Positions 16,446 through 35,271 of a stretch of 64,000 nucleotides of DNA are shown here, piece after piece. A program made the position numbers and the translations under genes. Where the stretch lies: positions 1 through 64,000 of the forward strand of contig JAJDBM010000058.1 in the NCBI GenBank assembly GCA_029261355.1, in the 5' to 3' direction. The notes under the pieces were generated by a model. The model was not told where the DNA came from and did no database searches. It worked only from the letters and a program-made list of their open reading frames with translations. The stretch is from Nitrospirales bacterium (GTDB lineage: Bacteria; Nitrospirota; Nitrospiria; Nitrospirales; UBA8639). The first letter of the stretch is position 1. Every line of letters starts with the position of its first letter.

Positions 16446-17303
16446 TCATCTATTCCTTGAATCGGAAGTCTTGCCTTCGGCCTTATTCTGGCTTCTCGTC
16501 TTTTTGCTGACGTGCATGTCTCGAGCACATCGAAAGCCAATTCCATGAGTCTTTAAAGCGAATCCTCCCTTGCCCCGAGACGCGGTCCGCAGATCAGGGA
16601 GAAAGCTACGCCAAGACCCTCCACGAATAACTTTAAGTATTCCTGTGTTGGGACCCCTGGGATTACGCTCTGGTGAGAGAGAGTAATAGTCTGAGGCATA
16701 CCAATCTTCTACCCACTCTCTGACATTTCCAGCCATGTGATGGAGTCCATAAGGAGATGCCCCCTCAGCTTGTGTGGAGACATTTTTAAGAGAGTCTATT
16801 CCACGCCACTCTCCATCGAAATTCGCTAATTTTCCATCATCTTCATGATCGCCCCATGGATAGGTTCGTCCATCTTTGCCCCTGGCGGCCTTCTCCCATT
16901 CTGCTTCTGTCGGGAGCCGCTTCCCTGCCCAGAAACAATAATCAACTGCATCATGCCAGGTAACTTGGACGACTGGACGGTTTTCGACACCCTTCATCTT
17001 GAATAGATCGCCATCACCGTAAACATTGAATGGTGGTTTATGGAGCGTTTCTTCTACGAATTTCTGATACTGCGTGTTTGAGACTTCGTATTTGTCCATG
17101 GCAAATGCGTTCAGGGAAACTTTACTTCGTGGTCGTTCGTCTTGCCGCCCTTCAGTAACTGCGCTTCCCCTGATGAATAGTCCAGCAGGGATGTTCACCA
17201 TCTCCACAGAGTCCTTTTCTACGAAGGGTTGTGCAGCTTGTGGCAAACTTGGTGTTGAGACCAAGACTCCTATCATTAAGCATGTCTTCATCCACGTCTT
17301 CAT
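16446..17303 (-). CDS. Periplasmic SUMF1/FGE-fold protein (paralogue 1)
   Basis: 285 residues; signal peptide residues 1-24, then a complete SUMF1 domain: V-N-I-P-A-G-L-F-I-R-G-S, D-K-Y-E-V-S-N-x-Q-Y, W-x-x-A-x-x-Y-C-x-W-A-G-K-R-L-P-T-E-A-E-W-E, N-V-R-E-W-V-x-D-W-Y, I-R-G-G-S-W and G-F-R-C-A-R. The active Cys pair of true formylglycine-generating enzymes after R-G-G-S-W is absent (R-S-F-L-P-D-L-R), so sulfatase activation is unlikely; a binding or structural role is more likely. A basic, low-complexity tail follows. It overlaps the preceding small gene by 4 bases. Confidence 0.85.
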   Translation of the reverse strand: MKTWMKTCLMIGVLVSTPSLPQAAQPFVEKDSVEMVNIPAGLFIRGSAVTEGRQDERPRSKVSLNAFAMDKYEVSNTQYQKFVEETLHKPPFNVYGDGDLFKMKGVENRPVVQVTWHDAVDYCFWAGKRLPTEAEWEKAARGKDGRTYPWGDHEDDGKLANFDGEWRGIDSLKNVSTQAEGASPYGLHHMAGNVREWVEDWYASDYYSLSPERNPRGPNTGILKVIRGGSWRSFLPDLRTASRGKGGFALKTHGIGFRCARDMHVSKKTRSQNKAEGKTSDSRNR

Positions 17304-17695
17304 GGTTTTCTCTCCCGACTCGACGCGACGATAGTTTGCGATAAATGAATCACTCGATCAGTGATGCTCAGCACTGAATTGTAATCACCTTTTCGTTTGG
17401 CCTTCCGTGCTTTCATTAATAACCCTCGCGCCTCATGTAATTGTTGCTCGATCTGAGTTTGAATCATGGGAGAAGCCAGAGTCCCTCCTATGGCAGAACT
17501 ATGGAATTCTTCCCATGCATCTTCGACAGCTCGTGAGGAAAGATGCACGCGCCTGGTGGAGTCTGATTCTACTGATGGTTCATCCATGGCGAATACATGT
17601 CCTGTTCCCCAGCAGATTGCACTTAATGCAATCACCCATAGGAGTAAATTACTGAACAATACAAGCCCTAGTCGTTGGCGGTCATGAATTTTCAT
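17300..17695 (-). CDS. Small exported or anchored protein, unknown
   Basis: 131 residues with an N-terminal hydrophobic segment (about residues 9-34, ending A-F-A-M), then a charged helical domain: a segment with H-E-A-R-G-L-L-M-K-A-R-K-A-K-R-K-G-D-Y-N-S-V resembling a single TPR-like hairpin. No family recognised. It sits between two SUMF1 genes and overlaps the downstream one by 4 bases, so it probably works with them. Confidence 0.6.
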   Translation of the reverse strand: MKIHDRQRLGLVLFSNLLLWVIALSAICWGTGHVFAMDEPSVESDSTRRVHLSSRAVEDAWEEFHSSAIGGTLASPMIQTQIEQQLHEARGLLMKARKAKRKGDYNSVLSITDRVIHLSQTIVASSRERKP

Positions 17696-17757
17696 TTTTT
17701 GGCCTCTGACTCCTCAATGATTATTATTACGTCGTAGGATGTCATCACAGGCATTGT

Positions 17758-18855
17758 TTATAGAATACTCTTCATTTGAATAAGTTCCTTGTTTGTCGGA
17801 TCTAACTCCAGAGCCTTTTCGATATCTATTTTTGCTGCCTTGTATTTATCTTCACCCATATGCTTCATCGCCTTGATCGTGAGTGACCGGACTTCGTCTA
17901 TCACTGCTTGAGAGGCTGATGTCGCACACCGAAATCCAAGGCCAACGCCATAGCTGTTGTTCATTGGATTGTTCCAGAAACGGTGGGTGGCGGTAATGCT
18001 GGCTTCTGCAGCGATCCAGGATCCGCCCCGTATGACTCGCTTGGCTCCAGTCGTCAGACGATCAACGTAGGTCCCGGTTCCACCAAGCCAGATAGGCTTA
18101 GATGGTCCGTTTGTATTCACTGGATGAGGCGCCTTTTTATAGAAATTCGGGTCATACCAATCTTGTACCCATTCGAAGACGTTTCCGGCCATGTGGTGAA
18201 GTCCAAATGCGCTAACACCTTGCGGTAAAGAGTCGACGGGCATAGTGGCATCATGACGCTTTCCGTAATTGGCTTTCGATGAATCCAGTGTGTTTCTCCA
18301 AGGGTACTTGTTTCCGTCTGGTCCTCTGGCGGCTCGCTCCCACTCAGATTCTGTCGGAAGTCGCTTTCCTTCCCATTTGCAGTAGGTCGTCGCATCCAAA
18401 TAATTCACACCGACCACTGGCTGTTCAGGTTTATTGAGTCGGGGATCGTCCCAATAAGCGGGAGCAGGATGCTCTGTAGCTTTTAAGAAAGTTTCATATT
18501 TTTTATTGGACACTTCGAATTTGTCGATCAGGTAGGCATCAATGACTACCCAATGCGATGGACCTTCATCATGGAAAGCCGCTCGTGACCACGGCATGCT
18601 CATTCTCCGATCGTACAGAGTGGGAGTTTTCCCTTTCTGAGACTTTAATGTCGGTTTCTCTTTATCGATGCCTATCACAGACATGGAAAATGGAACGTAC
18701 GCCATGTCTGTGTGTCCTTGAATAGATTCGTCTGCCTTTGCGGGTAAAGACATGGCCAGTAACATAACTGACGAGATACTCAGTAATGTGAGTAGTCTAT
18801 ATTGACTGCTTAATCGTGAGTGATGATCATCTTGTATCTGGACTCTGAGGTTCAT
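17758..18855 (-). CDS. Periplasmic SUMF1/FGE-fold protein with TPR-like tail (paralogue 2)
   Basis: 365 residues from ATG 18855, preferred over a GTG 18 bases upstream because GAGGAG lies 8 bases before it. An exported N-terminus (hydrophobic at about residues 22-42) leads to a SUMF1 domain with D-K-F-E-V-S-N-K-K-Y, G-K-R-L-P-T-E-S-E-W-E-R-A-A-R-G, N-V-F-E-W-V-Q-D-W-Y and G-L-G-F-R-C-A. After I-R-G-G-S-W come I-A-A-E-A-S-I, lacking the formylglycine-generating Cys residues. The C-terminal 45 residues (Y-K-A-A-K-I-D-I-E-K-A-L-E-L-D-P-T-N-K) form one TPR-like unit. Closely similar to the next gene upstream, suggesting tandem duplication. Confidence 0.85.
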   Translation of the reverse strand: MNLRVQIQDDHHSRLSSQYRLLTLLSISSVMLLAMSLPAKADESIQGHTDMAYVPFSMSVIGIDKEKPTLKSQKGKTPTLYDRRMSMPWSRAAFHDEGPSHWVVIDAYLIDKFEVSNKKYETFLKATEHPAPAYWDDPRLNKPEQPVVGVNYLDATTYCKWEGKRLPTESEWERAARGPDGNKYPWRNTLDSSKANYGKRHDATMPVDSLPQGVSAFGLHHMAGNVFEWVQDWYDPNFYKKAPHPVNTNGPSKPIWLGGTGTYVDRLTTGAKRVIRGGSWIAAEASITATHRFWNNPMNNSYGVGLGFRCATSASQAVIDEVRSLTIKAMKHMGEDKYKAAKIDIEKALELDPTNKELIQMKSIL

Positions 18856-18930
18856 AATGTCCACTCCTCGCACCTTAGGTGCACCTTGAAAGTTCGGGAT
18901 ACAATCAATTTGCCGACCTGACTACTATTG

Positions 18931-19875
18931 TTATTTGTTCATTTGTTTCAGGATGATTTCTCGGGTTTGTTGATATTCTATGTTTTTTGCGTCATCTTTT
19001 AATGCTGTGTCGATTGATTGCAATGCGTCTTTCCATTCTTCTTTACCCATGCTGATCAGTGCATGCATATAATCATATTGGACATCGTAGCGAATATCGG
19101 AAGAACCGGCCTTTGCACATCGAAATCCTAGTCCCACTCCATAAGAGTTATTCTCTGGCTGGTTCCAAAAACGATGACTGGTATGCAATGAACTTGCTGG
19201 AGCAAGCCAGGAGCCGCCCTTCAATACTTTCACGGCGCCCTGATTGGCGAAATCAACTCCGATAGCAGGACCCTGAGGGTTCATGGCAGGGCTGACAGTA
19301 TAATATTGGGGGTCATACCAGTCAGCGACCCACTCAAAGACATTCCCTGCCATGTTATAGATTCCATTATCTGTAGCTCCTTGGGGATAGGAGTTCACGG
19401 GAGAGGTTTTACCTAGGTTTTGACCGTAGTTGGCTTTTTCTTTGGTGAGTTTGTGTCCCCAAGGATAGTGACCACCTTGTGGGCCTTTGGCTGCTCGTTC
19501 CCATTCGGCCTCTGTGGGTAGTCGCTTACCTTTCCACTCGCAGAATTTACTCGCGTCATACCAGTTCACGCCGACGACCGGCTGCTCCTTGCCGTTTAAT
19601 CTTGGGTCATCCCAATACGCAGGTGCGGTATGTCCTGTCGCTTTCAGAAATTCGCCATAATGCTTATTAGACACTTCAAATTTGTCGATGTGATAAGCAT
19701 TTAAGACCACTTGATGTGGCATCTCATCGCCATGTTCATTGCTGCCCATTGTAAACTCGCCTTGCGGGATAAGTGCCATGTCTTCATTCTCTACAGCGAG
19801 TACTGTACTGATGGGAGCAAGGAGCAATGCGCTGGCGAGAGCCGTCGTTGTAATGGTCATCGGTAAGTTTGTCAT
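18931..19875 (-). CDS. Periplasmic SUMF1/FGE-fold protein with TPR-like tail (paralogue 3)
   Basis: 314 residues; signal peptide about 1-27; SUMF1 domain from M-A-L-I-P-Q-G-E-F-T-M-G-S to G-L-G-F-R-C-A (about residue 255). The segment after K-G-G-S-W is L-A-P-A-S-S-L-H-T-S-H-R, again without the catalytic Cys pair. It shares the R-F-W-N-x-P-x-N-N-S-Y-G-V-G-L block with paralogue 2. The last 55 residues are helical and TPR-like. AAGGAG precedes ATG 19875. First gene of the SUMF1-haem-cupredoxin run. Confidence 0.87.
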   Translation of the reverse strand: MTNLPMTITTTALASALLLAPISTVLAVENEDMALIPQGEFTMGSNEHGDEMPHQVVLNAYHIDKFEVSNKHYGEFLKATGHTAPAYWDDPRLNGKEQPVVGVNWYDASKFCEWKGKRLPTEAEWERAAKGPQGGHYPWGHKLTKEKANYGQNLGKTSPVNSYPQGATDNGIYNMAGNVFEWVADWYDPQYYTVSPAMNPQGPAIGVDFANQGAVKVLKGGSWLAPASSLHTSHRFWNQPENNSYGVGLGFRCAKAGSSDIRYDVQYDYMHALISMGKEEWKDALQSIDTALKDDAKNIEYQQTREIILKQMNK

Positions 19876-21721: not shown

Positions 21722-23368
21722 TCATTCAAGAGTGAGAGACTTTTTCACGTAGTCTTTCACATTCGGGTCCGTTGTCACAATGACGAGTGTCCAAGGGTCT
21801 TCATGGGAGCCAAGGTAATGAAGAATTGGTTCACGAATATGATGAGGAACTTCATGCATCCCGCCATCTAAAATTAACAGAGATGGGCGTGTAATGATTG
21901 CGCGAGAAAGAAGGATTCTCAGGCGCTGACTGGGAGTAAAGTCCTTCCCACCTTCTTTCACGATCGTTTCTAGGCCATCAGGAAATTCTTCGATTTCTGT
22001 ATCGAATTGCGCAGCATGTAATGCCCATAACAAATCTTCTGTTTGTATTCCTGGACGACCCATCGTGATATTGTCCGCTATTGAGCCTTCAAATAGCGTG
22101 AGATCTCTTCCAAAAACAATACTTCGCCGTTTGTTCATTTGCTCGGCGGAGAGGCTTCGTAGGTCGACGCCATTATATCGAACGACTCCCGCTGGAGGTT
22201 CCTCTAGACCTGCGAGCGCCAACGAGACGCGATGACGTGCTGTTTCTGTTGAGCAGATCAATGCCCATTTTTCACCCGGCGAAGCCTCAAAATTGATTTC
22301 TTCAGGAATCGCGCGTAATCCTTTTGCCCAACTTATTTGGCTACATGCCAGATGAAGTCCCGCGATGTCGGATTCAGGAATTGATAAGTCTGATCCGTTC
22401 GGGGTTTTGTCTTGAGGTAAGGTAAAGAGATGATTTAGTTCCGTTAACGCGGTCAAAAAATAAAACATGACATATGTTCGTTTCACGACAGAATCAATGT
22501 TCAGGAGCAGACTGGCAACAATCACTTCTGCTGCCACAAGTTGTCCTAACGTTAATTCTCCTCGACTGAGGAGCCACCCAGCGGTTCCTAGCAATCCTGT
22601 GTGTAAGATCACTTGAAGAGTTAACGAGCCAATGTATTGACGAAGTAACACGCTAAATCGAGCTTGACGTGCATGTACATAAGTCGTAGCCAATGTGTCA
22701 GCATTTCGCAAAACAAGTTCAGAACAATTTGTAGTTTTAAAATGTAAAAGATTGTCAGCCACTTCTTGAAACCAATGAAAGACATCATATTTTGATTCAG
22801 ACATATGTAGTGTCGTGCGGAGTCCGCCTTTGCCTAATAAAGCAATGAGGATAACTGAACCAATGAGTACGACATCGAAGATCACAAAATAGGGATGATA
22901 CAAGGCCAGTAAGGTCATCCCAATCAATCCTCCAACTAGCACATTGGTCAGGTCAACAAAGAGACTGGAAAGCGCTCGTTGAAGAAACACTGTTTCAAAA
23001 AACCGACTAATGGCATCTGTGCGAAATGATCCTTTCTTAAAGTGTGGCAACACTCGCGCCAAGGCTAAGGTTACTCGAACAAAGACTCGTCGTTCGAGCA
23101 TGTCTATTGCGTAAAATTGCAAGACTTTAAAAATCCCTACAAAGATTAAAATTACCGCCATGATTCCAACAATCGTGACAACCATCACAGGGGAGATGGC
23201 AAATGCAAACGTGTTGACCAATTCTTGAACGGTGAGAGGAATGATAAGGGAAAACACTCCAACCGCAATGGCGTAGGTCAGGATGGATAAGAGAATCGAA
23301 CGTTCTTGTTTTAGAAACACACCAAGACGGTCAAGGTTTTCTCTAAGGAGGGGCACAGGGTTACTCAT
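21722..23368 (-). CDS. ABC-transporter-like export protein with degenerate ATPase domain
   Basis: 548 residues from ATG 23368 (AGGAG upstream; an earlier ATG at 23392 overlaps the TolC gene). About five to six membrane segments (residues about 25-300) are followed by an ABC-type domain whose motifs are all altered: Walker A is A-L-I-C-S-T-E-T-A-R-H-R-V, without the G-x-G-K-S/T loop; the signature is F-T-P-S-Q; Walker B is L-L-I-L-D-G-G-M-H, with catalytic Glu replaced by Gly; the switch His is Thr (V-I-V-T-T-D). It resembles type I secretion HlyB-like exporters without a peptidase domain. ATP hydrolysis seems impossible, so an ATP-independent or structural role is inferred. Operon with TolC and HlyD homologues. 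Confidence 0.82.
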   Translation of the reverse strand: MSNPVPLLRENLDRLGVFLKQERSILLSILTYAIAVGVFSLIIPLTVQELVNTFAFAISPVMVVTIVGIMAVILIFVGIFKVLQFYAIDMLERRVFVRVTLALARVLPHFKKGSFRTDAISRFFETVFLQRALSSLFVDLTNVLVGGLIGMTLLALYHPYFVIFDVVLIGSVILIALLGKGGLRTTLHMSESKYDVFHWFQEVADNLLHFKTTNCSELVLRNADTLATTYVHARQARFSVLLRQYIGSLTLQVILHTGLLGTAGWLLSRGELTLGQLVAAEVIVASLLLNIDSVVKRTYVMFYFLTALTELNHLFTLPQDKTPNGSDLSIPESDIAGLHLACSQISWAKGLRAIPEEINFEASPGEKWALICSTETARHRVSLALAGLEEPPAGVVRYNGVDLRSLSAEQMNKRRSIVFGRDLTLFEGSIADNITMGRPGIQTEDLLWALHAAQFDTEIEEFPDGLETIVKEGGKDFTPSQRLRILLSRAIITRPSLLILDGGMHEVPHHIREPILHYLGSHEDPWTLVIVTTDPNVKDYVKKSLTLE

Positions 23369-23375
23369 GTTTTGG

Positions 23376-24845
23376 CTAGGATCTCCTCTCATTATTCACT
23401 TGAGTCCCATCTGATGACGAGCCTTTGACCCATCCGCCGATGGCCCATTTATAGAGTGCCAGGGCTTTCTGATAGTCGGCCATGGCGGTAATCCATCCTT
23501 CGGCTGCTTGAAGCACATTGCGCTCACGAAGATTCACAAAGAGTAAACTTGTGGCTCCGAGTTTGAATCGAGTGCGTTCGCCTTTCTCTAATTTTTTAGC
23601 TAAATGAAGAGCTTGGCGGGAAACTTGTGTCCGCTTCTCTGTTCGTGTGATCGCTGAGTGGGCATTGCCCACATCCATGCTGACTTGTTGAAGACGGTAT
23701 TGTTGCAATAGCTTAAGGCGTTGGGCCTTGCCTTTCATCTGGAGTTCATCACCGCGCGCCTCGCGCTGGAGAAACGGAAAGCTTAACTTCGCACCAAATC
23801 GATACCCAAGTCCTAGAACAAAATCCTCTGGTTTCCTCGACGGCGTGGCTTCGAGGGTTAAATCTGGAAGGAAATTATTGGCAGCGACCTCTAGGTCGAT
23901 GTGATTAAACTCGGCTTCTAAACGTACGAGCTGGATTTCTGGCCGGACCATTGGGGCGCGGTGTTTCTCTTGTTCGAATTGCTTCAGCACTTGCTCTGGT
24001 CTCATTAATGGGAAACGAGGAGCTGTGAGGTTTTCAGGGATCACCAATGTATCGCTTTCCCATAAAAATAATGCGAGCTTATATTGTTCTTTGTCTATCT
24101 GGCGTTGGGCCTTGATGAAGTGCGCTCGACGACGTTGAACTTCTTGACTGGCTTCGATGACATCGAATTGCGCTCGTGCTCCAGCTTTAGCCTGTTTCAT
24201 CAATTGCGTGGTACGGGCCTCTGCCACGGCCACGGCCTGCTGCTGTAATTTCATGAGTTTCCAGGCAGCCACCCAACTCCAATATTGCGTCGCAGCACCA
24301 AGATAGAGATCTTGTCGAGTTTTCTGAATTTCTATTTCCGCCTGTTTGTTCGCCAATGAAGATTTCATGAGTTCTGCGTGATCAGGGTTCGTCATGAATC
24401 CACGAAGTAGTGGAAGCACGATGCCGAGCAGTGGCTGATTAGAGGTATTGATACCGAGATCCGCTACTTCTACATCTCCGATGCCCGTTCGAAATCCTGC
24501 GAATCCCCTAATGCCCCAGGGATGTCGCAACTCCACAAGCGTATCATTGAACCCAACGCTGGTGGTCTTTCCATTTTTTACGAGTCGTTCTAATTCCCAG
24601 TCATTGACAAGATTGGGTTCGAACTTCCCTAGGGCAGTTAACAGTTTCCCGCTGGCCACCATCCTTTGCGTCTGACTGCCCCGAAGAAGTGGATGACCTT
24701 TTTCCACTCGCGTGAGAACGGCGTCGAGCGTTAGAATCGTAATGGGTGTTTTAGCAACAGATGGCGGTGTGTTTGTTTCTGCCCAGAGAAGAGTGGTCGT
24801 ACAAGCCACTATCATCCAAACGCCAACTAAGTGCTGTATTTTCAT
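23376..24845 (-). CDS. TolC-family outer-membrane channel protein
   Basis: 489 residues, usual length. Signal peptide about 1-23, then two repeated long-helix/strand units typical of TolC: A-A-T-Q-Y-W-S-W-V-A-A-W-K-L, E-A-R-T-T-Q-L-M-K-Q-A-K-A-G-A-R-A-Q-F-D and, in the second half, A-L-H-L-A-K-K-L-E-K-G-E-R-T-R-F-K-L-G-A-T-S-L-L-F-V-N. It forms the outer-membrane exit duct of a tripartite export system with the adaptor and ABC-like subunits encoded on either side. Confidence 0.88.
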   Translation of the reverse strand: MKIQHLVGVWMIVACTTTLLWAETNTPPSVAKTPITILTLDAVLTRVEKGHPLLRGSQTQRMVASGKLLTALGKFEPNLVNDWELERLVKNGKTTSVGFNDTLVELRHPWGIRGFAGFRTGIGDVEVADLGINTSNQPLLGIVLPLLRGFMTNPDHAELMKSSLANKQAEIEIQKTRQDLYLGAATQYWSWVAAWKLMKLQQQAVAVAEARTTQLMKQAKAGARAQFDVIEASQEVQRRRAHFIKAQRQIDKEQYKLALFLWESDTLVIPENLTAPRFPLMRPEQVLKQFEQEKHRAPMVRPEIQLVRLEAEFNHIDLEVAANNFLPDLTLEATPSRKPEDFVLGLGYRFGAKLSFPFLQREARGDELQMKGKAQRLKLLQQYRLQQVSMDVGNAHSAITRTEKRTQVSRQALHLAKKLEKGERTRFKLGATSLLFVNLRERNVLQAAEGWITAMADYQKALALYKWAIGGWVKGSSSDGTQVNNERRS

Positions 24846-24911
24846 TAGACCTCTTCTCCTCTAAACGTTCTGGCAATGAATTTCAAAAGAATATTGAGTT
24901 TGTCTTATCAT

Positions 24912-26339
24912 TTATTTTTTTGGTCTTCCGGCTTTTGGTAACAGAACATCTTTCAAGCTTAGAATTCCAGACTCATAATCCGCCGGAAATAAATTGACTC
25001 GTCGCCATATTTCATACCATAAGGGTACCCGATTGAGGATGACCCATCCCATCACCTGCGTGCCTTGTCGTACCTGGAGAGAAGGAGGCCAGCTTCGTCG
25101 TTCGGTCTTTGGTACGACCCATAACCGGAATTGGCCGTTTGTAGAAGCGGATTGATCCACCACTTGAACTTTTCCATCATACGTTCCCGCCATCAGTTCG
25201 GGCCATGCGGGAAGTGGGATAGCGGGGACTCCGTGGAAGAGTAATCGAACTGAACGTCCTGGTTTTAACAATGGGGCATCAATGGCATTAGCCCACATTT
25301 CAACGGCTGGGGTGGCATTCAGGGGGACAATGGTAATTAGCAAATCTCCGGGATGGACGATTTCACCAGGCCCGATCCGCGTCATCCGGACTACTGTTCC
25401 GTCGAGTGGTGCCACAACTCGGCTGGCAACACGTCGCTGGATGGCATTCGACCTCGTTAATTCTAGTTTCGCGACGTCTTCCGAAGCCTTAGCTGCTTCA
25501 CCCAGCGCTGACGCTCGTTGTGTTCTGGCGTCTAAGAGACGCTGTACGAGTTCTGCATCGATACGTTCTCGATTGTGTCCTAATGCCAGTCGTGCTTGTT
25601 GAGCTTCACGAAGAGAAGCTTGGGCGGCTTTCACGTCTGCCATAGCTGCCGTAGCTGCTTGGATTGCCAGTTCCAATTCACGTCGCGAGAGGAGGCCTTC
25701 CGCTTCCAGAAGGCGTGATCGGTCTAAGTTTAAGGTTGCAGTCTCCTTAGCTATCATGACTACGGCTACATCTTGCTCTGCACTTTGTGCTTTATGCCGA
25801 GCTTCAGTCACTCTTGCCTTGGCGGATGTCGTGGCTGCCTTTGTTAAGGCGGTCATTTCCTTCAGGCGTTCAGCTAAGATGTTGGCCCGATCCAGGGCGG
25901 CCTGTCGCCTCAGTTCGAGTGCCTCACGAGATTGCTCCAACCGTTGGAGGAGATCCTGTGCCATGAACTGAGGATTAACATCATCCAGATCAAGAACTAA
26001 ATCCCCTTTTTTTACTGTGACTCCTTCGTTCACATGCCACGCGCGGATACTTCCATTGATCTGCGCATGAATTTCTTGAGGCCGTTCTTTGGGGGAATAG
26101 GCTGAGAGTGTACCTTGGACTGTTATGGTTTGTGTCCAGGGAACAAAGCATACGATTGCGGCAAACACGATGAACATCATGAGGGCGAACCTCGACCATG
26201 TCCGCAATCGCCTAGGAACTCTGACCAATGTTCGGGAATGTAGTCGCTGTGCCTTAAGGTGATATGTGTCTGCAGGGAGTTCTGTGATTCTCATAGTTTT
26301 CACTGATCGTAGTGTCTTTGCTAAATCGTCAGCATTCAT
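24912..26339 (-). CDS. HlyD-family periplasmic adaptor
   Basis: 475 residues. One membrane helix (about residues 50-70), then a lipoyl/barrel-sandwich half-motif (I-N-G-S-I-R-A-W-H-V-N-E-G-V-T-V-K-K-G-D), a long alpha-helical hairpin rich in Ala, Glu and Arg (about residues 135-305), and the second half-motif (V-V-A-P-L-D-G-T-V-V-R-M), followed by beta-barrel segments. It bridges the inner-membrane ABC-like protein to TolC. First gene of the three-gene export operon; no clear ribosome site before ATG 26339, and ATG 16 codons later is an alternative. Confidence 0.88.
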   Translation of the reverse strand: MNADDLAKTLRSVKTMRITELPADTYHLKAQRLHSRTLVRVPRRLRTWSRFALMMFIVFAAIVCFVPWTQTITVQGTLSAYSPKERPQEIHAQINGSIRAWHVNEGVTVKKGDLVLDLDDVNPQFMAQDLLQRLEQSREALELRRQAALDRANILAERLKEMTALTKAATTSAKARVTEARHKAQSAEQDVAVVMIAKETATLNLDRSRLLEAEGLLSRRELELAIQAATAAMADVKAAQASLREAQQARLALGHNRERIDAELVQRLLDARTQRASALGEAAKASEDVAKLELTRSNAIQRRVASRVVAPLDGTVVRMTRIGPGEIVHPGDLLITIVPLNATPAVEMWANAIDAPLLKPGRSVRLLFHGVPAIPLPAWPELMAGTYDGKVQVVDQSASTNGQFRLWVVPKTERRSWPPSLQVRQGTQVMGWVILNRVPLWYEIWRRVNLFPADYESGILSLKDVLLPKAGRPKK

Positions 26340-26697: not shown

Positions 26698-26892
26698 TCA
26701 AGATACCGTCAGCTTGTCTATCTGCCAGGTGATTCTCTCCTGTAAGTTATTTAACTCCTGCTTCAGACTCCCCATTAATAGCTTCCATACACCCCGTCGA
26801 AACCTTTTGGGGTCTCGAAACGGTTTCCTTGTGAATGCCTTGACTCGTTTTTCTAATTGCTGGATTCTTCCTTTAACCCCGCCAGTTGTCAT
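26698..26892 (-). CDS. Small coiled-coil-like protein, doubtful
   Basis: 64 residues, strongly charged with a heptad-like pattern (I-Q-Q-L-E-K-R-V, L-K-Q-E-L-N-N-L-Q-E-R-I-T-W-Q-I-D-K-L) around a basic middle. The composition is protein-like rather than random, but the ribosome site is poor and no family is recognised. Confidence 0.35.
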   Translation of the reverse strand: MTTGGVKGRIQQLEKRVKAFTRKPFRDPKRFRRGVWKLLMGSLKQELNNLQERITWQIDKLTVS

Positions 26893-27131
26893 TCATAGTG
26901 CTGAATAGCCTCAAGATGATAGTTTCCCACGTTCACGAGTGCCGTCTTCTTTAGGTTTTTGTAATATGGGCTGTTGTGCATAGCGCACCTAGTTAGTCGG
27001 AGCCCAATACTTATAATGAAATACGGCATAATCGAAGTTCTCGTTTTCATATTGTCCTCCTTTTATCTGGGGCCATTTGCTTGAGGTTTTAACAGATTAC
27101 CTTCAATTTGAATTCACTTTCATATTTCATA

Positions 27132-27623: not shown

Positions 27624-27944
27624 TTAAAAGTGATCTTTTCTGAGCACACATGCATCGATGACAAACAAGCTTCCAGAATGACGCTCAAGAAAAGGTCTGA
27701 GACCTGACAGAATGGGATCGACTTTTTCTTCTGGAACCACGGTCAAGACCATTTGTAAACTGCTCGTATCATTAAACATCAAATGTCCCTCATGAAATCC
27801 GCTATGGCCCTTACCAGAAAGATTACTGAAGATCGTATAGCCACTCGCTTGGATTCGATCAAGCACTTCCGTGACGAACTTTATGTGTTCGCCTTCGATA
27901 ATGATTTTGATTTCTTTCATTGGATGGAGCTTAATAGTGCTCAT
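27624..27944 (-). CDS. PII-like regulatory protein of the dab operon
   Basis: 106 residues from ATG 27944, which has GAGGAGGACC upstream and clears the DabA stop by 30 bases; the longer reading would overlap dabA. The sequence has the ferredoxin-like PII/SbtB pattern: K-E-I-K-I-I-I-E-G-E-H-I-K-F-V-T-E-V-L-D, then G-Y-T-I-F-S-N-L-S-G-K-G and V-V-P-E-E-K-V-D-P-I-L. It lacks the classical T-loop Tyr. Probably a small trimeric sensor that tunes the carbon pump according to nucleotide or bicarbonate state (inference). Last gene of the operon. Confidence 0.75.
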   Translation of the reverse strand: MSTIKLHPMKEIKIIIEGEHIKFVTEVLDRIQASGYTIFSNLSGKGHSGFHEGHLMFNDTSSLQMVLTVVPEEKVDPILSGLRPFLERHSGSLFVIDACVLRKDHF

Positions 27945-27973
27945 GATTACCTGGTCCTCCTCAACCTGATGGA

Positions 27974-30900
27974 TTACTGAATGAGTTGCCAATTTTCCTG
28001 TGAATGATGGAAAAAGAATTCTTTGGTGACCGGATCTAACGCCACGAGATTTATCCATTGATTGCCAATAAGTCTTTTAAGAATATTATGTCGAGAAATG
28101 ATCATGCTGATTCTTTCCCGAGGCGCTTCAATAATAACAAATAACCGCATAGGTTCGTGATAAGGCTTTTCCCCATCGAAAACCGTTTGAACTGGCAATC
28201 CAACGCAGAGATCACTTTGGGACCCATACATGACTCCCACGCGGCTGGCCACATTGTGATAGACCTTGCTTCCGCTGCCATACACCGATGGATCCACTGT
28301 GGAAAAATAATGTTCCATGTTAATCCAATTCCCCACGATCATGGGTGCTGTCATAATAATTTCCAAAAATTTTCCTGTCGAGTCCTGTATATGGTCGTAT
28401 GAATGTAAAAATGTTCGTCCTTCAAGATTTATTCCTTGCGTTAAGAGACGCCTTCCCACAATAAACGCCGTATGTCGAGAAAGACCCCATTCGGGTCGAA
28501 CTTGAGACCAATCAAGGCTACGCTGTTTGGTTCGTTCAGCTGCATCATTTAAAGATTGACAGGCCGTTTCTTCAGGGAAGCGACTTAATCTTTCTCTGCT
28601 GTTTCGGCAACCTGCATCTTCCAAATCATGATGGAGTCTCAGCAAGTCCTTTCGATGAGTCGCAGGCACATCTTCTAGGTCAAATAGTTCGACTTCGTCG
28701 GTGGTCGTGTCGTGTTGACCTGGGAGAAAGTGTGTATCGGTAGGGATAACTATCCCATTTTTGGCCAATAATTGTCGAACCTGTCCCTTATTGGCCATAG
28801 CCGCAAAGGCTCGAGCATTGGACACGCCATGGTTGCCACCGCAGGCTCCGCAGTCCAAGGCTGACTCGTAGGGATTGTTGTCAGAAACACTGCCATGAGC
28901 ACAAATGAATATAAGTCTGGAAAATGTTTTTGTGAATCCTAAAACTCGAAGCGCCGTTTCTACAAAATGGGCTTGTTCCGACGTCGTAAATCCTGTTTGC
29001 GTGATTCGGTCCATTCGATTAGCGACGGCACGTTCATGGACATTATTTTCCTGTCTCAGGCCGCGAATGAAATTTTCATGGTCTGCCTCAGTCCAGTGAA
29101 GTAGTTGATGCAACTCCTCATCTTTATTACTGTCTAATGTTGTTTGATTCAGTGCTTCTTTTCGAAGACGCTCAACTTGATCATGCGAAACTGCGTTGCC
29201 TTTCCTTCCATGTTCTTCGATGAGCATTCGATAGATGGTTGCGCGATGCTCTGAGGCAACCATTTCCTCGGCCTCCAGGTTCGTGAGCTTTTCAACCGTC
29301 AACGTGGTTCCAATGGGAATGGCAAAGCGTTCTTTAAACCAGGAGGTGATCCGTTTAAACCACAAGGGGCTCAACGTTTGTCCAAATAGTCTGAATCCGA
29401 AAAACCAGCCAATCGCTTCCACCATGACATATGGGGTAATCACGTTTTCTTTTAAATCATGAAGCAGGGTGTGCCCAGTTTTTGCTAATTGCTGTCGTTC
29501 CAGAAATTGTTCTGCAGCCTTTCCTTGATACGCGCGTGGAATTTCTTTCACCACATGTTTTGCTTTGAGGAGTACCGGACATTGATCGGTTTCTTGCTCA
29601 CTGCCAAACCCTTGGTAGCAGAGTGGAACGCCAAAAAATCCGGCAAACCCAAATGTTTCGTTGCCTCCCACTTCTTCGAAATGTCGTCGAAACCCTTCCG
29701 AACGAACATCAATACAGAAAATACCTTGAGCCAAAGGACGTGACTCTGCTGGTAGTTCCACGGACTCATCGCTTTTCTCGAGTTTTTGAAGATTCGGAGT
29801 AAAATGGTTGATGAAATCCTTGATATAGCTGAGTTCAAAGGATTTAAGCCAAATCGGTCCATGTTGTGATTCTGGAAATTGTGATACCCATTCCAGTAAT
29901 GTATCCAAGACTTCTTGGGGACTTGCGACCAATTCCATGACTGAGAAGTCAAGGATTGGGGCGAGGTGTAAAAGAATTAAGGCCTTTTGGTGAATGTCTT
30001 GTTCGAGGCGAAGGGTTTGCCATGTTTCTCTGATTTTTCTTCCACTATGATCCAGGCTATCAATGAGCAGGGGGTATCGCACGAACAATGAAAGATCAAG
30101 ATCCTCGACAATCTGCTGTGGTAGCCCAGTCAGTTTCCATTCTTTGTACAGTCCGTATCCGATTGGATGGTTGTCCATGAAGGATAAAATCGAAGTGTAG
30201 GTCCCTTTGACGCCAATATTGTCTTGGCATGCCAAGGCGACTAGTTCTTTTTCATAAAACAAGCGAACCGCTAAGTATTTCACCAGGTCTATGCGAAAGG
30301 TTTTCTGCCATTCATGACCTGCTTGTTCTGACCTCCATTTGATGAATCCGGCCCATCCTGATAGCTGAGCTAAATGCAACGTGAGATAGTCAATCCACAG
30401 ATCATGGGGAATGGCCATGGTCTCTAGGCTTTCCAGGATGGCATCTTCTGGCCGGTTCGGAAGATTTTGAATTTTTGAGGCCCATTGTGGAATGCCTAAC
30501 AATGGACCAGACCGATCATCCTGGGCCAAGATTTTCCACCCACCATAAAAGGATTTGCTTCTAAGAGGCATGGCCCAGGGAGCATGTCCTTCATCGAGAA
30601 AGGCTCCACACCATTTGATGAGTTCTTGGTTGATGTCGTTTTGAATGGTGGAGCCCAACGTGTGATCGCACCAGGCCGAAAAGGTGTAGGTCGACGCAAG
30701 TTCCTTTTTTTCGATCTTGGGATGATCATTCAAAGAAAATGTGAGTCCTTTCGACTTGGATAGATCGTGGAGTTTGTCTAGAAGCCCTTTCACGTCGTTG
30801 TCCCTCAGAGACTCTTCTAAAACAGCTGAAGCAATATCGGGCGCTGTGTAGCCATTCCCATTGATGAGAATCGTGCGTAAGGCATTTAGATGGGAAATTT

Positions 30901-31222
30901 TTTGATTGCCAATGGCTATGATTTGATTTTTCGTCTGATCTTTCAACGCTTCATCAATGGCGTCTTGGGTAATACGGCCTTTTTGGTAGTAATGGCGATA
31001 TTCTTTACTGGATAAATACCCTTTACCACCAAAAAACTTTCTGCCTTGTTCGATGGCGTCTTCAAAGGGTAAATGTTCCAATCCATGAAGGGGGTTATGG
31101 TGTATAAAGGTTTGCATGGGCCAAAAATGAGAAATGGGTTCACTCGCCAATTGGACGAAGGACCGTATTTCCATTCGCTGACCGTCTTTTGATGGAACGA
31201 ATTTTTTGACTTCAGCCATCAT
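27974..31222 (-). CDS. dabA: DabA-type inorganic carbon uptake subunit (DUF2309/UPF0753)
   Basis: 1082 residues. DabA is a carbonic-anhydrase-like Zn protein that, with DabB, uses ion gradient energy to hydrate CO2 one way in the cytoplasm. Predicted ligands Cys503 and Asp505 (F-C-I-D-V-R-S-E) and His776 and Cys791 (C-A-H-G-S to L-D-C-G-A-C-G-G-N-H) have the same C-x-D and H-x14-C spacing as the Halothiobacillus enzyme. The chain is longer than that reference. N-terminus H-H-N-P-L-H-G-L-E-H-L is family-typical. It begins 9 bases after the small antiporter-like gene. Confidence 0.92.
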   Translation of the reverse strand: MMAEVKKFVPSKDGQRMEIRSFVQLASEPISHFWPMQTFIHHNPLHGLEHLPFEDAIEQGRKFFGGKGYLSSKEYRHYYQKGRITQDAIDEALKDQTKNQIIAIGNQKISHLNALRTILINGNGYTAPDIASAVLEESLRDNDVKGLLDKLHDLSKSKGLTFSLNDHPKIEKKELASTYTFSAWCDHTLGSTIQNDINQELIKWCGAFLDEGHAPWAMPLRSKSFYGGWKILAQDDRSGPLLGIPQWASKIQNLPNRPEDAILESLETMAIPHDLWIDYLTLHLAQLSGWAGFIKWRSEQAGHEWQKTFRIDLVKYLAVRLFYEKELVALACQDNIGVKGTYTSILSFMDNHPIGYGLYKEWKLTGLPQQIVEDLDLSLFVRYPLLIDSLDHSGRKIRETWQTLRLEQDIHQKALILLHLAPILDFSVMELVASPQEVLDTLLEWVSQFPESQHGPIWLKSFELSYIKDFINHFTPNLQKLEKSDESVELPAESRPLAQGIFCIDVRSEGFRRHFEEVGGNETFGFAGFFGVPLCYQGFGSEQETDQCPVLLKAKHVVKEIPRAYQGKAAEQFLERQQLAKTGHTLLHDLKENVITPYVMVEAIGWFFGFRLFGQTLSPLWFKRITSWFKERFAIPIGTTLTVEKLTNLEAEEMVASEHRATIYRMLIEEHGRKGNAVSHDQVERLRKEALNQTTLDSNKDEELHQLLHWTEADHENFIRGLRQENNVHERAVANRMDRITQTGFTTSEQAHFVETALRVLGFTKTFSRLIFICAHGSVSDNNPYESALDCGACGGNHGVSNARAFAAMANKGQVRQLLAKNGIVIPTDTHFLPGQHDTTTDEVELFDLEDVPATHRKDLLRLHHDLEDAGCRNSRERLSRFPEETACQSLNDAAERTKQRSLDWSQVRPEWGLSRHTAFIVGRRLLTQGINLEGRTFLHSYDHIQDSTGKFLEIIMTAPMIVGNWINMEHYFSTVDPSVYGSGSKVYHNVASRVGVMYGSQSDLCVGLPVQTVFDGEKPYHEPMRLFVIIEAPRERISMIISRHNILKRLIGNQWINLVALDPVTKEFFFHHSQENWQLIQ

Positions 31223-31231
31223 CCATACTCT

Positions 31232-32308
31232 CTAGTAAAATAGTCCGCTATAACTTGCAGCAACAATGAGTAAGGCAAGAGAGCAAATTTCCGCTGTTTT
31301 GAGATCCAGGTACGGAATATCTGGTCTGGCCTTTCCAAATGCTGTTTGATGAAGTAAATGTGCAAAATACCAACTTCCCAACATCCACACGCTGAGTATG
31401 ATCAAAGAAATGATTAGCAGTGAAACAGTCTGATGGTTCGCTGTCGGCATTGTTGTTAAGCCCGTCAATATCGGAATAATGGGAAGCATCATGGCTATGC
31501 TGATCAGAATAATTAACATGGCCCCGAGTCGCGGCATCGGAGAAGCCAAGCCGGGGAGGGTTCCTATTGCATGAGTACCAAACCGCTGCTGGACACAGTG
31601 GTATGTGACAAGGAGACCGGTCATGACCAATGCTATGGTTATGCCAAACGGTATCCCCCATTGGGGAAACGTCGAGAATACTGCGGTCAACCCCCACAAC
31701 ATGGAGATTTGCGCTATGGTTGCATACGTGAGTAATGGTCGAATTTGGCTTTGCCCGAGGCACTTAAATGAGCAATACAGCGCACTGCCCAATGCCAACA
31801 AAGAAGTGACGGCTGGCAGCCCCTCAACTAAGAACGTTTGAAGCTTCGAGAGTTCAGCCAAACCGAGAGCAAGGAATACCGTCGTCCATAGCCCAGAGAC
31901 TGTTCCCGGAGCTGAGCCCACAAGAAATGCAAAAGGCATATGGAAGGGAAAGAGCGGCACGAGTGTCACCGCAAGAAAAAGTCCGATGAACATGGCTAAT
32001 TCATTTTCCGTGAATATGGAAACGAGGGTGAGCAGAATTGCTAGAATTACTTGTGCGAGACTGATCGTTTTTAATGTGCCAGTGCAATGAGATTTGAAGA
32101 GAGAATAGGACGCATAGCCAAGAACTCCAACAAGGAAATATTTATTGATGGGTAATGGTGTCAGTAATGCTCCAAGTCCAAGCCCAGACACCGCGAGAAT
32201 TTCTACACTTGCTGTTGTCGAGTGCTTGGAATGGTGTTGCGCAAGAATTGCACAAGTGGCAGAGAGAATAATCGCAAAAGCAAGTAGAGATGTTGGGTCT
32301 ATATTCAT
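31232..32308 (-). CDS. Second antiporter-like membrane subunit of the dab operon
   Basis: 358 residues from ATG 32308; 25 additional upstream codons are open but overlap the preceding gene. About ten hydrophobic helices. The segment P-L-F-P-F-H-M-P, then K-C-L-G-Q-S-Q-I-R-P-L-L-T-Y-A-T-I-A-Q, corresponds to the conserved helix of NuoL/M/N-type proton-conducting subunits, though some charged residues are replaced. It is shorter than DabB and lies between DabB and DabA. Typical dab operons have only one antiporter-like partner, so this may be an extra membrane module (inference). Confidence 0.72.
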   Translation of the reverse strand: MNIDPTSLLAFAIILSATCAILAQHHSKHSTTASVEILAVSGLGLGALLTPLPINKYFLVGVLGYASYSLFKSHCTGTLKTISLAQVILAILLTLVSIFTENELAMFIGLFLAVTLVPLFPFHMPFAFLVGSAPGTVSGLWTTVFLALGLAELSKLQTFLVEGLPAVTSLLALGSALYCSFKCLGQSQIRPLLTYATIAQISMLWGLTAVFSTFPQWGIPFGITIALVMTGLLVTYHCVQQRFGTHAIGTLPGLASPMPRLGAMLIILISIAMMLPIIPILTGLTTMPTANHQTVSLLIISLIILSVWMLGSWYFAHLLHQTAFGKARPDIPYLDLKTAEICSLALLIVAASYSGLFY

Positions 32309-32339
32309 GGAAATCCTAAACTCTATTCCGATCTTTCGC

Positions 32340-34034
32340 TCAATACCGGCTTCCGATTTTTTGAGCCCATTGAAAGAGTACATTTCCCCACCGCATGTAG
32401 ATGCGATCTACATACAGTCGGTTAATCAGAAACATATACATTTTTTGCTGAATGGCATGCTTCCACTCTGCATTCAGAATCTTATGTCCTTTGGCATTGG
32501 TATAGCCATAACCCCAACCCAAAAGTATAAAGACTGTGGATACCAAAATGAACACATCAAACACGGTAGGATTCAGTGCAGCTGCGACAAAGAAGGATTC
32601 CGCGACTCCTGGCTCCGGGTAAAGGAAATGGGTAAAGGCTTCGCCAGCCCACAAATAGGTAAATCCAATCAGAAATAACGCGACAATCATCGCACTCGCG
32701 ACCTTCCATGAAGCCACGGCATGCAATCGATACAAGCTGAAAATAGTTTGCGAGGCTGTGACCCAACTAAAAAAGAGAAAGATGACTGCCCCATGTGCAT
32801 CCTCAAGCGGAACTTCCAATAGGTCATGCGCGACCATCAAAATAATAAGCGGCATGATCAACGTCACAATTAATCCAGTCACCCATGTAGTTTTCGCAGG
32901 CAATCTGGTTGGTTCATGGGTTGAAGATGTCGGGAATTTCGGCTCGTGTCTGGCGTTATGGATGACATTACCAGCGCTGAGAAAAAGGGAGGCCTTGAAT
33001 AGCCCATGGGCAATGAGGTGGAAGATGGCAAGCGCAAAGGCGCCAAGTCCACATTCCATGATCATATATCCCATTTGACCCATGGTCGAGAATCCGAGAG
33101 TTTTCTTAATGTCATTTTGCACGAGCATCATGGATGCACCCAGCAGCACAGTTATTGCACCAACGACAAACACAATATGAAGTGTGTTGGGTGAAAGAGC
33201 ATAGAGGGGAGCCAGCCGATTGAGCAGGAATCCTCCTGCGTTAATGATCCCCGCGTGCATAAGTGCTGAAACAGGAGTCGGAGAGTCCATGGTATCCGGT
33301 AACCAGACATGCAGGGGAAATTGCGCAGATTTCGCCATGGCACCAACAAAGATCAGTAATGTAATGACGGATACTGCACTGAGATCGAGAAGATTTCCTG
33401 GTAAGAGAGAAATGACGTAAAGGTGTTCTGATGCTCGCTGAAAGAGTTCGCCAAACTCAAGTGTGCCGAAATATTTATACGTCAGAAAGATTCCACAAAG
33501 AAAGGAGACGTCTCCAACGCGATGCACCATAAATGTTTTAAACGCGTTCTGGTAGGCAGGTACATGCGAATAATTAAATGCGAGAATCAAATAAAGAGTC
33601 CAACTCAATAGCTGCCAAAGCACAAACAACATTAGAAGGTTCGGACTGGAAACAAGCGAAAGAATGACGAAGGTCATAAGGCCAAGTAAGGCATAAAACC
33701 GAGCATAGCCCGGATCACCTTCAAGGTAGCGAACAGAATAGACATGAATAACAGTGCTGACGCTGGTAATCAGCAGCATCATCACGGCCGTGAGTCGATC
33801 GACGAAAATACCCACTTTAAACAAGGCGTTCGCGCTATCTTGTAACGGCCAGAGAATGAGATGTACGACTTCACCTGTGCTGACTTCATACAATGTCAGG
33901 ATAGAGAGGAGACAAGCACTGCCTGTGGCTATAATCCCAACCCTAGGAACAAAAGAGGTGAAACGTTTGCCACAAGCGCTGATGATCAACGCAGCGAGTA
34001 ACGGAAGAAGAGGGATGAGAATTGCGATCGTCAT
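32340..34034 (-). CDS. dabB: DabB-type proton-conducting membrane subunit (NuoL-like)
   Basis: 564 residues with about 14 membrane helices. Conserved NuoL/MrpA elements are seen: W-Q-L-L-S-W-T-L-Y, a K-T-F-M-V-H-R-V-G-D segment, F-P-L-H-V-W-L-P-D-T-M-D-S-P-T-P-V-S-A-L-M-H-A-G-I-I-N-A-G-G in separated pieces, and D-I-K-K-T-L-G-F-S-T-M-G-Q-M-G-Y. It couples ion movement to DabA. First gene of the operon (dabB, extra subunit, dabA, PII-like) and divergent from a LysR gene. Confidence 0.9.
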   Translation of the reverse strand: MTIAILIPLLPLLAALIISACGKRFTSFVPRVGIIATGSACLLSILTLYEVSTGEVVHLILWPLQDSANALFKVGIFVDRLTAVMMLLITSVSTVIHVYSVRYLEGDPGYARFYALLGLMTFVILSLVSSPNLLMLFVLWQLLSWTLYLILAFNYSHVPAYQNAFKTFMVHRVGDVSFLCGIFLTYKYFGTLEFGELFQRASEHLYVISLLPGNLLDLSAVSVITLLIFVGAMAKSAQFPLHVWLPDTMDSPTPVSALMHAGIINAGGFLLNRLAPLYALSPNTLHIVFVVGAITVLLGASMMLVQNDIKKTLGFSTMGQMGYMIMECGLGAFALAIFHLIAHGLFKASLFLSAGNVIHNARHEPKFPTSSTHEPTRLPAKTTWVTGLIVTLIMPLIILMVAHDLLEVPLEDAHGAVIFLFFSWVTASQTIFSLYRLHAVASWKVASAMIVALFLIGFTYLWAGEAFTHFLYPEPGVAESFFVAAALNPTVFDVFILVSTVFILLGWGYGYTNAKGHKILNAEWKHAIQQKMYMFLINRLYVDRIYMRWGNVLFQWAQKIGSRY

Positions 34035-34365: not shown

Positions 34366-35271
34366 ATGCCAATGGACTGGCTCAATTACCACCATTTGTA
34401 CTATTTCTGGGTCATTGCACGGGAAGGCTCGATTAAACTGGCCTGTGAGCGACTTAGCCTGTCGCAGCCCGCACTGAGTGTTCAACTTCGTGTGCTCGAA
34501 GACACTGTCGGGGAACAATTATTTGATCGAGTAGGCCGTAGATTGGTTCTGACCGAGGTGGGGAAAATGACCTACCGATATGCCGATGAGATATTCACCT
34601 TAGGTCACGAATTAACCAGCACTTTAAAAGGGCGGGAAGCCGATCATCCTGTTCGTTTGATCGTCGGTATTGCTGAAGTCGTGCCAAAAATGGTGGCCTA
34701 TAAATTATTAAAAGTTGCATTCCAACAGTTTGAACACATCAAGGTCGTCTGTTGGGAGGGTCGAGTCGAGCGGCTCCTCGGTGAACTTGCCCTTCATACA
34801 CTTGATATTGTGATCACAGACGCCCCTGTTCCCCCCACGGTAAGCATCGAAGCCCATAGTCATTTACTCGGAGAAACAGGTGTGACGATATTTGGCACGG
34901 AGCCTTTAGCTCGTCAATATCGTCGTAAATTTCCGCAGTCACTGAATGGGGCGAGGTTTCTGTTGCCGACAAATAATTCGGTGTTGAGGCGTGGAATGGA
35001 GGAATGGTTCCGTAAATACGATATTCATCCGTCGATTGTAGGAGAGTTTGAAGATGGGGCGACCATGAAAGCATTCGGACAGGAAGGTCATGGTTTATTT
35101 CCGGGATCATCTGTGGTGGCAAAGGAAATTACTCGACAATATCAAGTGCGGACCGTCGGCCATATCAGCGGTGTGACGGAACGGTTCTATGGTATTACGG
35201 TTGACCGCCGCATCAAACATCCTGCCGTCTTGGCCATTTCAACCTCGGCGAAAAATACCGTCTTTGGGTAA
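34366..35271 (+). CDS. LysR-family regulator of the dab operon (NhaR-like)
   Basis: 301 residues. N-terminal helix-turn-helix (Y-H-H-L-Y-Y-F-W-V-I-A-R-E-G-S-I, then L-S-Q-P-A-L-S-V-Q-L-R-V-L-E), then a periplasmic-binding-protein-like effector domain. The Y-Y-F-W-x-x-A-R-E-G-S form is typical of the NhaR branch. A second ATG two codons in (34372) is equally possible and no good ribosome site is visible, so the mRNA may be leaderless or weakly translated. The divergent position suggests it controls carbon uptake, perhaps in response to ion or pH state (inference). Confidence 0.88.
   Translation: MPMDWLNYHHLYYFWVIAREGSIKLACERLSLSQPALSVQLRVLEDTVGEQLFDRVGRRLVLTEVGKMTYRYADEIFTLGHELTSTLKGREADHPVRLIVGIAEVVPKMVAYKLLKVAFQQFEHIKVVCWEGRVERLLGELALHTLDIVITDAPVPPTVSIEAHSHLLGETGVTIFGTEPLARQYRRKFPQSLNGARFLLPTNNSVLRRGMEEWFRKYDIHPSIVGEFEDGATMKAFGQEGHGLFPGSSVVAKEITRQYQVRTVGHISGVTERFYGITVDRRIKHPAVLAISTSAKNTVFG

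Follow-up and report, generated by a model that had tools for sequence, protein, structure and literature searches.

The stretch of DNA analysed here, the window, comprises 64,000 nucleotides of contig JAJDBM010000058.1 from a Nitrospirales bacterium. On its minus strand three genes follow each other in operon order: that of an HlyD-type periplasmic adaptor (24912-26339; PF13437, 40.8 bits; TIGR01843, 74 bits), that of a TolC-like outer membrane efflux protein, OEP (23376-24845; PF02321, 95.8 bits), and that of an ABC exporter half-transporter of 556 amino acids (21722-23392; PF00005, 30 bits), in which a transmembrane domain (TMD) is joined to a degenerate nucleotide-binding domain (NBD). The HlyD-TolC-ABC gene order is kept in relatives. 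The initial annotation had described the membrane part, the HlyD adaptor and TolC as intact and the reading frame as open, and the open reading frames, the Pfam matches and the operon layout bore this out. Since the orthologues begin at Met9 of the window protein, the true start of the ABC gene is probably at 23368, which follows closely on the TolC stop.

The TMD, as delimited by an AF2 model and alignment, covers residues 17-335 with six TM helices (22388-23344, minus strand), and the NBD covers residues 345-556 (21725-22360, minus strand). In the model the NBD keeps the ABC fold, with pLDDT values mostly between 82 and 92 from residue 371, and the best PDB match of the whole protein was HlyB in complex with HlyD (7sgr, E 1.4e-21), these structural models being monomers of middling confidence. 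An exporter-type TMD fused to an ABC-fold NBD, encoded in one operon with an HlyD adaptor and a TolC channel, is what is expected of a type I secretion system (T1SS), and the closest NCBIfam models were those of T1SS/peptide exporters, with scores far below the cut-off. No peptidase-like N-terminal domain was found in the window ABC protein and no protein cargo gene was visible.

None of the ATPase motifs by which a T1SS ABC subunit is recognised (Walker A GxxGxGK[ST], the catalytic Glu of Walker B, LSGGQ, the Q-loop Gln and the switch His) was found in the window protein. The motif alignment placed the degenerate Walker A, GEKWALICSTETARHR, at residues 373-388 (22229-22276, this and the following on the minus strand), where the Lys and the Gly residues are lost. 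The Q-loop, VFGRDLTLF, at residues 426-434 (22091-22117) has no Gln at the conserved position, and KDFTPSQRL (within GKDFTPSQRLR, residues 483-491, 21920-21946) stands in place of the LSGGQ signature. In Walker B, LLILDGGMHE (residues 505-514, 21851-21880), the catalytic Glu is replaced by Gly and the Asp, the sole surviving ATPase residue, is kept, while in the H-loop, IVTTDP (within LVIVTTDP, residues 538-543, 21764-21781), the switch His is replaced by Thr. The same alignment showed intact motifs in seven other ABC exporters of this genome. Frames and motifs are as the initial annotation had reported them for Walker A, the Walker B Glu, the signature and the switch His, and, judged from these motifs, the ATPase of the subunit is almost certainly dead.

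A scan of a genome collection, together with whole-genome searches, brought up orthologues of 56-86% identity in Nitrospirales, a Nitrospinia MAG, Nitrococcus mobilis and a related gammaproteobacterium. In a phylum-wide search 77 of the 296 Nitrospirota genomes gave a match; the Nitrospirota matches listed all fall into two families within the same order; each genome carries 1-4 copies, and tandem arrangements are frequent. The exporter was present in 7 of 77 Nitrospinota genomes and in 3 of 54 genomes of the Nitrococcus order. The holders first looked as if they were nitrite oxidisers only, but a strict tie to nitrite oxidation was rejected, 4 of the 7 exporter-bearing Nitrospinota genomes having no NxrB-like match. 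Our literature search found no description of this exporter family with dead NBD in the open literature.

Motifs were counted in 53 distinct family sequences from Nitrospirales, Nitrospinota and Nitrococcus-like gammaproteobacteria. Glycine occupies the catalytic position in all 53, the switch His and the first two Walker A glycines occur in none, and the Q-loop Gln was met in a single member; in the canonical ABC exporters of the same order the catalytic Glu, the Q-loop Gln, the switch His and the Walker A Lys were each present in 26 out of 26. The motifs altered in the window protein are dead in 53 of 53 orthologous sequences, across three phyla. Only the loss of the Walker A Lys had to be narrowed: it holds in the window's branch, where the residue is mostly Arg, and not in the family as a whole, of which 32 members (the Nitrospiraceae copies) retain the Lys. 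Because of this distribution the Lys was probably lost later than catalysis. In the tree the family formed one clade against the canonical exporters (SH-aLRT 100). The Nitrococcus pair stands at the base of the window's branch and the Nitrospinia MAG is nested inside it; by its place in the tree, the copy of this MAG was probably gained by transfer.

The dN/dS ratio, obtained from NG86 counts, was about 0.07-0.09 for the TMD and about 0.10-0.15 for the NBD; against the two nearest relatives the values were about 0.07 and 0.12-0.15, respectively. As far as these ratios tell, both domains are under purifying selection. The dead NBD also has conserved positions of its own, namely Glu374, Lys375, Trp456, Trp534 and Gly510, the last of which replaces the catalytic Glu. 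The exporters with dead NBD very probably represent a functional, conserved family.

On the side of HlyD, the window encodes on its minus strand a P-II protein, DabA, a membrane protein and a DabB-like protein, that is, an inorganic carbon pump (27624-34034, by Pfam), the genes of which are contiguous with the exporter in the relatives lacking the NBD. A divergent LysR regulator gene lies on the plus strand (34366-35271); its relative adjoins HlyD in many orthologous loci, and in the window the P-II, DabA and DabB-like genes separate it from the exporter. From this arrangement one may guess at a small-molecule efflux tied to inorganic carbon metabolism. At the loci L046, L047 and L048 the genes of LysR, HlyD, TolC, the NBD-less TMD, DabB, the membrane protein and DabA are found in one stretch.

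Upstream of HlyD a small coiled-coil protein, similar to secreted proteins or lipoproteins, is encoded in two overlapping frames (26698-27050, minus strand; frames 26889-27050 and 26698-26892). The window copy is the only one of this family (~150 residues) found in this genome, and the protein is possibly an accessory protein of the exporter. In many relatives, too, members of the coiled-coil family are encoded no more than a few kb away from the exporter (L010:12162-12605, L011:2620-2943, L038:5295-5792 and others). Three tandem genes resembling sulfatase-modifying factor (FGE) lie near the exporter in the window (16446-19875, minus strand), and relatives of these are also near the exporter in the Nitrospinota loci L150, L151 and L154.

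The Nitrospiraceae copies have other surroundings. At four loci (L083, L090, L103, L105) the dead ABC gene is directly upstream of genes for a PAS histidine kinase and an NtrC-type response regulator, with no HlyD or TolC; at L087 and similar loci a protein with a 4HB_MCP/Tar-type sensory domain and no further domains is encoded directly downstream of it, and other copies stand alone. Thus the family has diversified. In Nitrospira, three tandem TolC-like genes precede the dead ABC gene at L095, L097 and L112. In one genome (G186, L085:8631-10269) the TMD and NBD of one tandem copy are in different frames, so that either the two domains have come apart a second time or the sequence contains an error.

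The ABC gene of G004, G010 and G012, three species of a single genus, ends after the membrane domain, at ~337-347 residues, and dabB follows directly, HlyD and TolC still being upstream. A detached family NBD was not found in these three genomes, where the best matches were canonical ABC proteins with 70-74 bits; the true family NBD in sister species scores 314 bits. Since the three NBD-less sequences form one clade within full-length relatives, the NBD was lost once. Constraint persists in the truncated protein (dN/dS about 0.22-0.26), and its membrane core, including Glu57 and Glu289, is unchanged. The NBD-less form gave no Pfam match at all, and a fold search with its model matched ABC exporter membrane domains weakly (best E 2.6e-3).

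The changes in the truncated proteins are concentrated where the NBD would dock. At 70 positions at least 90% of the full-length members agree; five of these positions differ in two or all three of the NBD-less species, and the five comprise 4 of the 4 positions in two intracellular NBD-docking loops vs 1 of the 66 elsewhere (Fisher 5e-6, with the loop boundaries set after inspection of the data). Coupling helix 2 is the most diverged ten-residue stretch of the TMD in these species, with 13% identity vs 83% in full-length relatives. According to the AF2 models and the alignment, this region (residues 214-223 of the window protein, 22724-22753, minus strand) is kept together with the dead NBD and lost in the NBD-less relatives; its helix is present in the model of the window protein and missing from that of the NBD-less protein. 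Because the docking loops are what diverged after the loss of the NBD, the dead NBD of the full-length members would still be docked on the membrane domain, and the use of an NBD in trans does not seem likely in the truncated members.

Three ionisable residues of the membrane domain stood out in the alignment (all on the minus strand). Glu57 in TM1 (23222-23224) is Glu in 53 of 53 family members and Val in most canonical exporters; His264 in TM5 (22601-22603) is His in 49 of 53 and Gln in the other four; Glu289 in the middle of TM6 (22526-22528) is Glu in 51 of 53, Gln in two, and mostly Asn in canonical T1SS. Conserved ionisable TM positions are not enriched, however, numbering 6 in the family vs 7 in the canonical T1SS exporters, so that proton coupling is not specifically supported and an excess of intramembrane charge had to be given up as its sign. 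None of the three residues aligns with the glutamate ladder of SbmA or the coupling residues of MsbA, and the alignment likewise showed no homology of Glu57 and Glu289 to the proton residues of MsbA or SbmA. Previous studies have demonstrated that LmrA and MsbA without their NBDs still transport on ion gradients and that Glu314 in TM6 of LmrA is required for transport without the NBD (PMC2704374, PMC4979069, PMC6155054). The SbmA-type transporters, which have lost both the NBD and the coupling helices, are proton-driven (PMC13316013).

Taken as a whole, the locus is best explained, with a probability of about 0.5, by a tripartite exporter that is independent of ATP hydrolysis, is driven by ions and retains the dead NBD as a scaffold. 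The window protein would form the inner-membrane part of this HlyD/TolC system and come from an ancient family of ABC half-transporters whose NBD is unable to hydrolyse ATP. Two copies would pair as a homodimer, with the dead NBDs serving solely as a dimerisation and coupling scaffold, an ion (proton) gradient would drive alternating access via family-specific ionisable residues, e.g. Glu57, His264 and Glu289, and a small substrate would be handed to HlyD and TolC under LysR control. It is likely, from the motif losses, that ATP hydrolysis at this NBD is not what powers export. The initial annotation had proposed an ATP-independent channel or scaffold; the ATP independence stood, the motifs being dead family-wide and the natural deletion of the NBD in three species supporting it, while on sequence the subunit may be a channel, an ion-driven transporter or a scaffold. 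By analogy, an ion gradient is the favoured drive, at slightly less than even chances, because the SbmA family has gone through this transition and the membrane domains of LmrA and MsbA run on ion gradients. Within one and the same family the fold is intact and the ATPase dead in most lineages, and the NBD and docking loop are wholly lost in one, from which we infer a working similar to that of secondary transporters. Against the ion-driven reading it must be noted that some Nitrospiraceae members, having the Walker A Lys, may still bind nucleotide, and against its tripartite form that some Nitrospiraceae copies are in loci without HlyD and TolC.

A gated pore, or a membrane anchor joining HlyD and TolC, with the solute leaking down its own gradient and no active pumping, would agree with the absence of a visible energy source in the sequence and with TM ionisable residues that are not enriched over canonical T1SS. 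However, the six-helix bundle and the exporter-type fold are strongly conserved and a plain anchor would not need the coupling helices that are conserved in the full-length form, and we regard such a pore or anchor as rather unlikely. An intact ABC protein encoded elsewhere might instead pair with the window subunit and supply ATP hydrolysis in a heterodimer-like manner, since at least seven ABC exporters with intact motifs are encoded in this genome and heterodimers of which one site is degenerate are widespread (review, PMC8277102). A SecA-type ATPase, considered as partner on the lead of PMC4452313, was discarded, no SecA gene being seen at the loci. The proposal of the initial annotation that a partner supplies the active ATPase found no support: no intact NBD adjoins any locus examined, an active partner gene was found neither in the window operon nor as a tandem copy at these loci, the tandem Nitrospiraceae copies are both dead, and the three NBD-less species, besides encoding no detached family NBD, have lost coupling helix 2. 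In heterodimeric exporters one subunit normally keeps complementary half-sites, whereas here the Q-loop, the H-loop, Walker A and B and the signature are all gone; an unlinked partner is thus an unlikely source of ATP hydrolysis.

Pseudo-enzymes often become regulators, and the dead subunit might be a sensor or co-receptor that reports the state of the substrate or the membrane to a regulator, and not a pump. One Nitrospiraceae copy adjoining a PAS histidine kinase and an NtrC-type response regulator, and another adjoining a four-helix-bundle sensory protein, would suit this role; but the operon with HlyD and TolC in the window and in most of the nearer relatives fits export, and a sensor is in our view improbable. 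That nucleotide binding without hydrolysis gates the transporter could be argued from the Walker A Lys of 32 of the 53 members, but the window's branch is devoid of both this Lys and the P-loop glycines and three species have no NBD whatsoever, which makes such gating very improbable. As for a decaying pseudogene, nothing beyond the lost motifs speaks for it, and the open frame, the dN/dS far below 1 and the identical loss fixed across three phyla leave it a practically negligible chance. The initial annotation had allowed for a recent pseudogene in case the orthologues keep intact motifs; every orthologue shares the loss, and this, together with the low dN/dS, rules it out.

The ATP-independent exporter set out above bears on how the family is to be viewed. 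By definition, ABC exporters hydrolyse ATP. A family in which the ATPase, and in one branch the whole NBD, was lost and which is nevertheless under selection offers a natural test of whether efflux through HlyD and TolC can be driven by the membrane domain of an ABC protein without help; so far, the case for this has been based on engineered LmrA and MsbA truncations and on the importer SbmA. It is a tentative view, to which we give somewhat worse than even odds, that this is a natural tripartite exporter family midway in the conversion of an ATP-driven ABC pump into a secondary transporter driven by ions, all of its forms feeding HlyD and TolC. It is misleading to annotate the genes with dead NBD as 'ABC transporter' or 'type I secretion ATPase', and the NBD-less form escapes Pfam entirely.

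Compared with known systems, the window exporter shares the ABC, HlyD and TolC operon and the type IV exporter fold with the T1SS exporters of the HlyB-PrtD-LssB type, HlyB being its best structural match; it differs from them in the loss of all ATP-hydrolysis motifs, in its sub-cut-off scores, in the lack of a peptidase-like N-terminal domain and in its link to LysR. The heterodimers TmrAB, TM287/288 and BmrCD have degenerate ATPase motifs as well, but here both tandem copies are dead, no active partner was found and all motifs are lost. The SecA_DEAD/HlyD modules of Planctomycetes and others, described also from Nitrospirae, similarly combine T1SS-like HlyD/OEP proteins with the lack of a normal ABC ATPase; however, those loci have no ABC homologue and encode a SecA-like ATPase and M50-like proteins (PMC4452313), whereas the loci studied here encode the ABC membrane domain and showed no SecA gene. 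SbmA/BacA (SLiPT) also has an ABC-type membrane domain working without ATP, and the NBD-less relatives share with it the loss of the NBD and the coupling helix (PMC13316013). The window protein, in contrast, keeps its dead NBD, which is absent only in the three NBD-less species, and its coupling helix 2 region, gone in the latter; the glutamate ladder is not shared, the Glu positions of SbmA aligning to other residues. Moreover, SbmA imports, whereas the adaptor and the outer membrane channel of the window system imply export. The window protein is therefore not a member of the SbmA family. An exporter membrane domain on its own is also present in LmrA-MD and MsbA-MD, which are capable of transport powered by ion gradients (PMC2704374, PMC4979069), but those constructs are engineered, while in the present family nature has produced both the form without NBD and the full-length form with its dead NBD.
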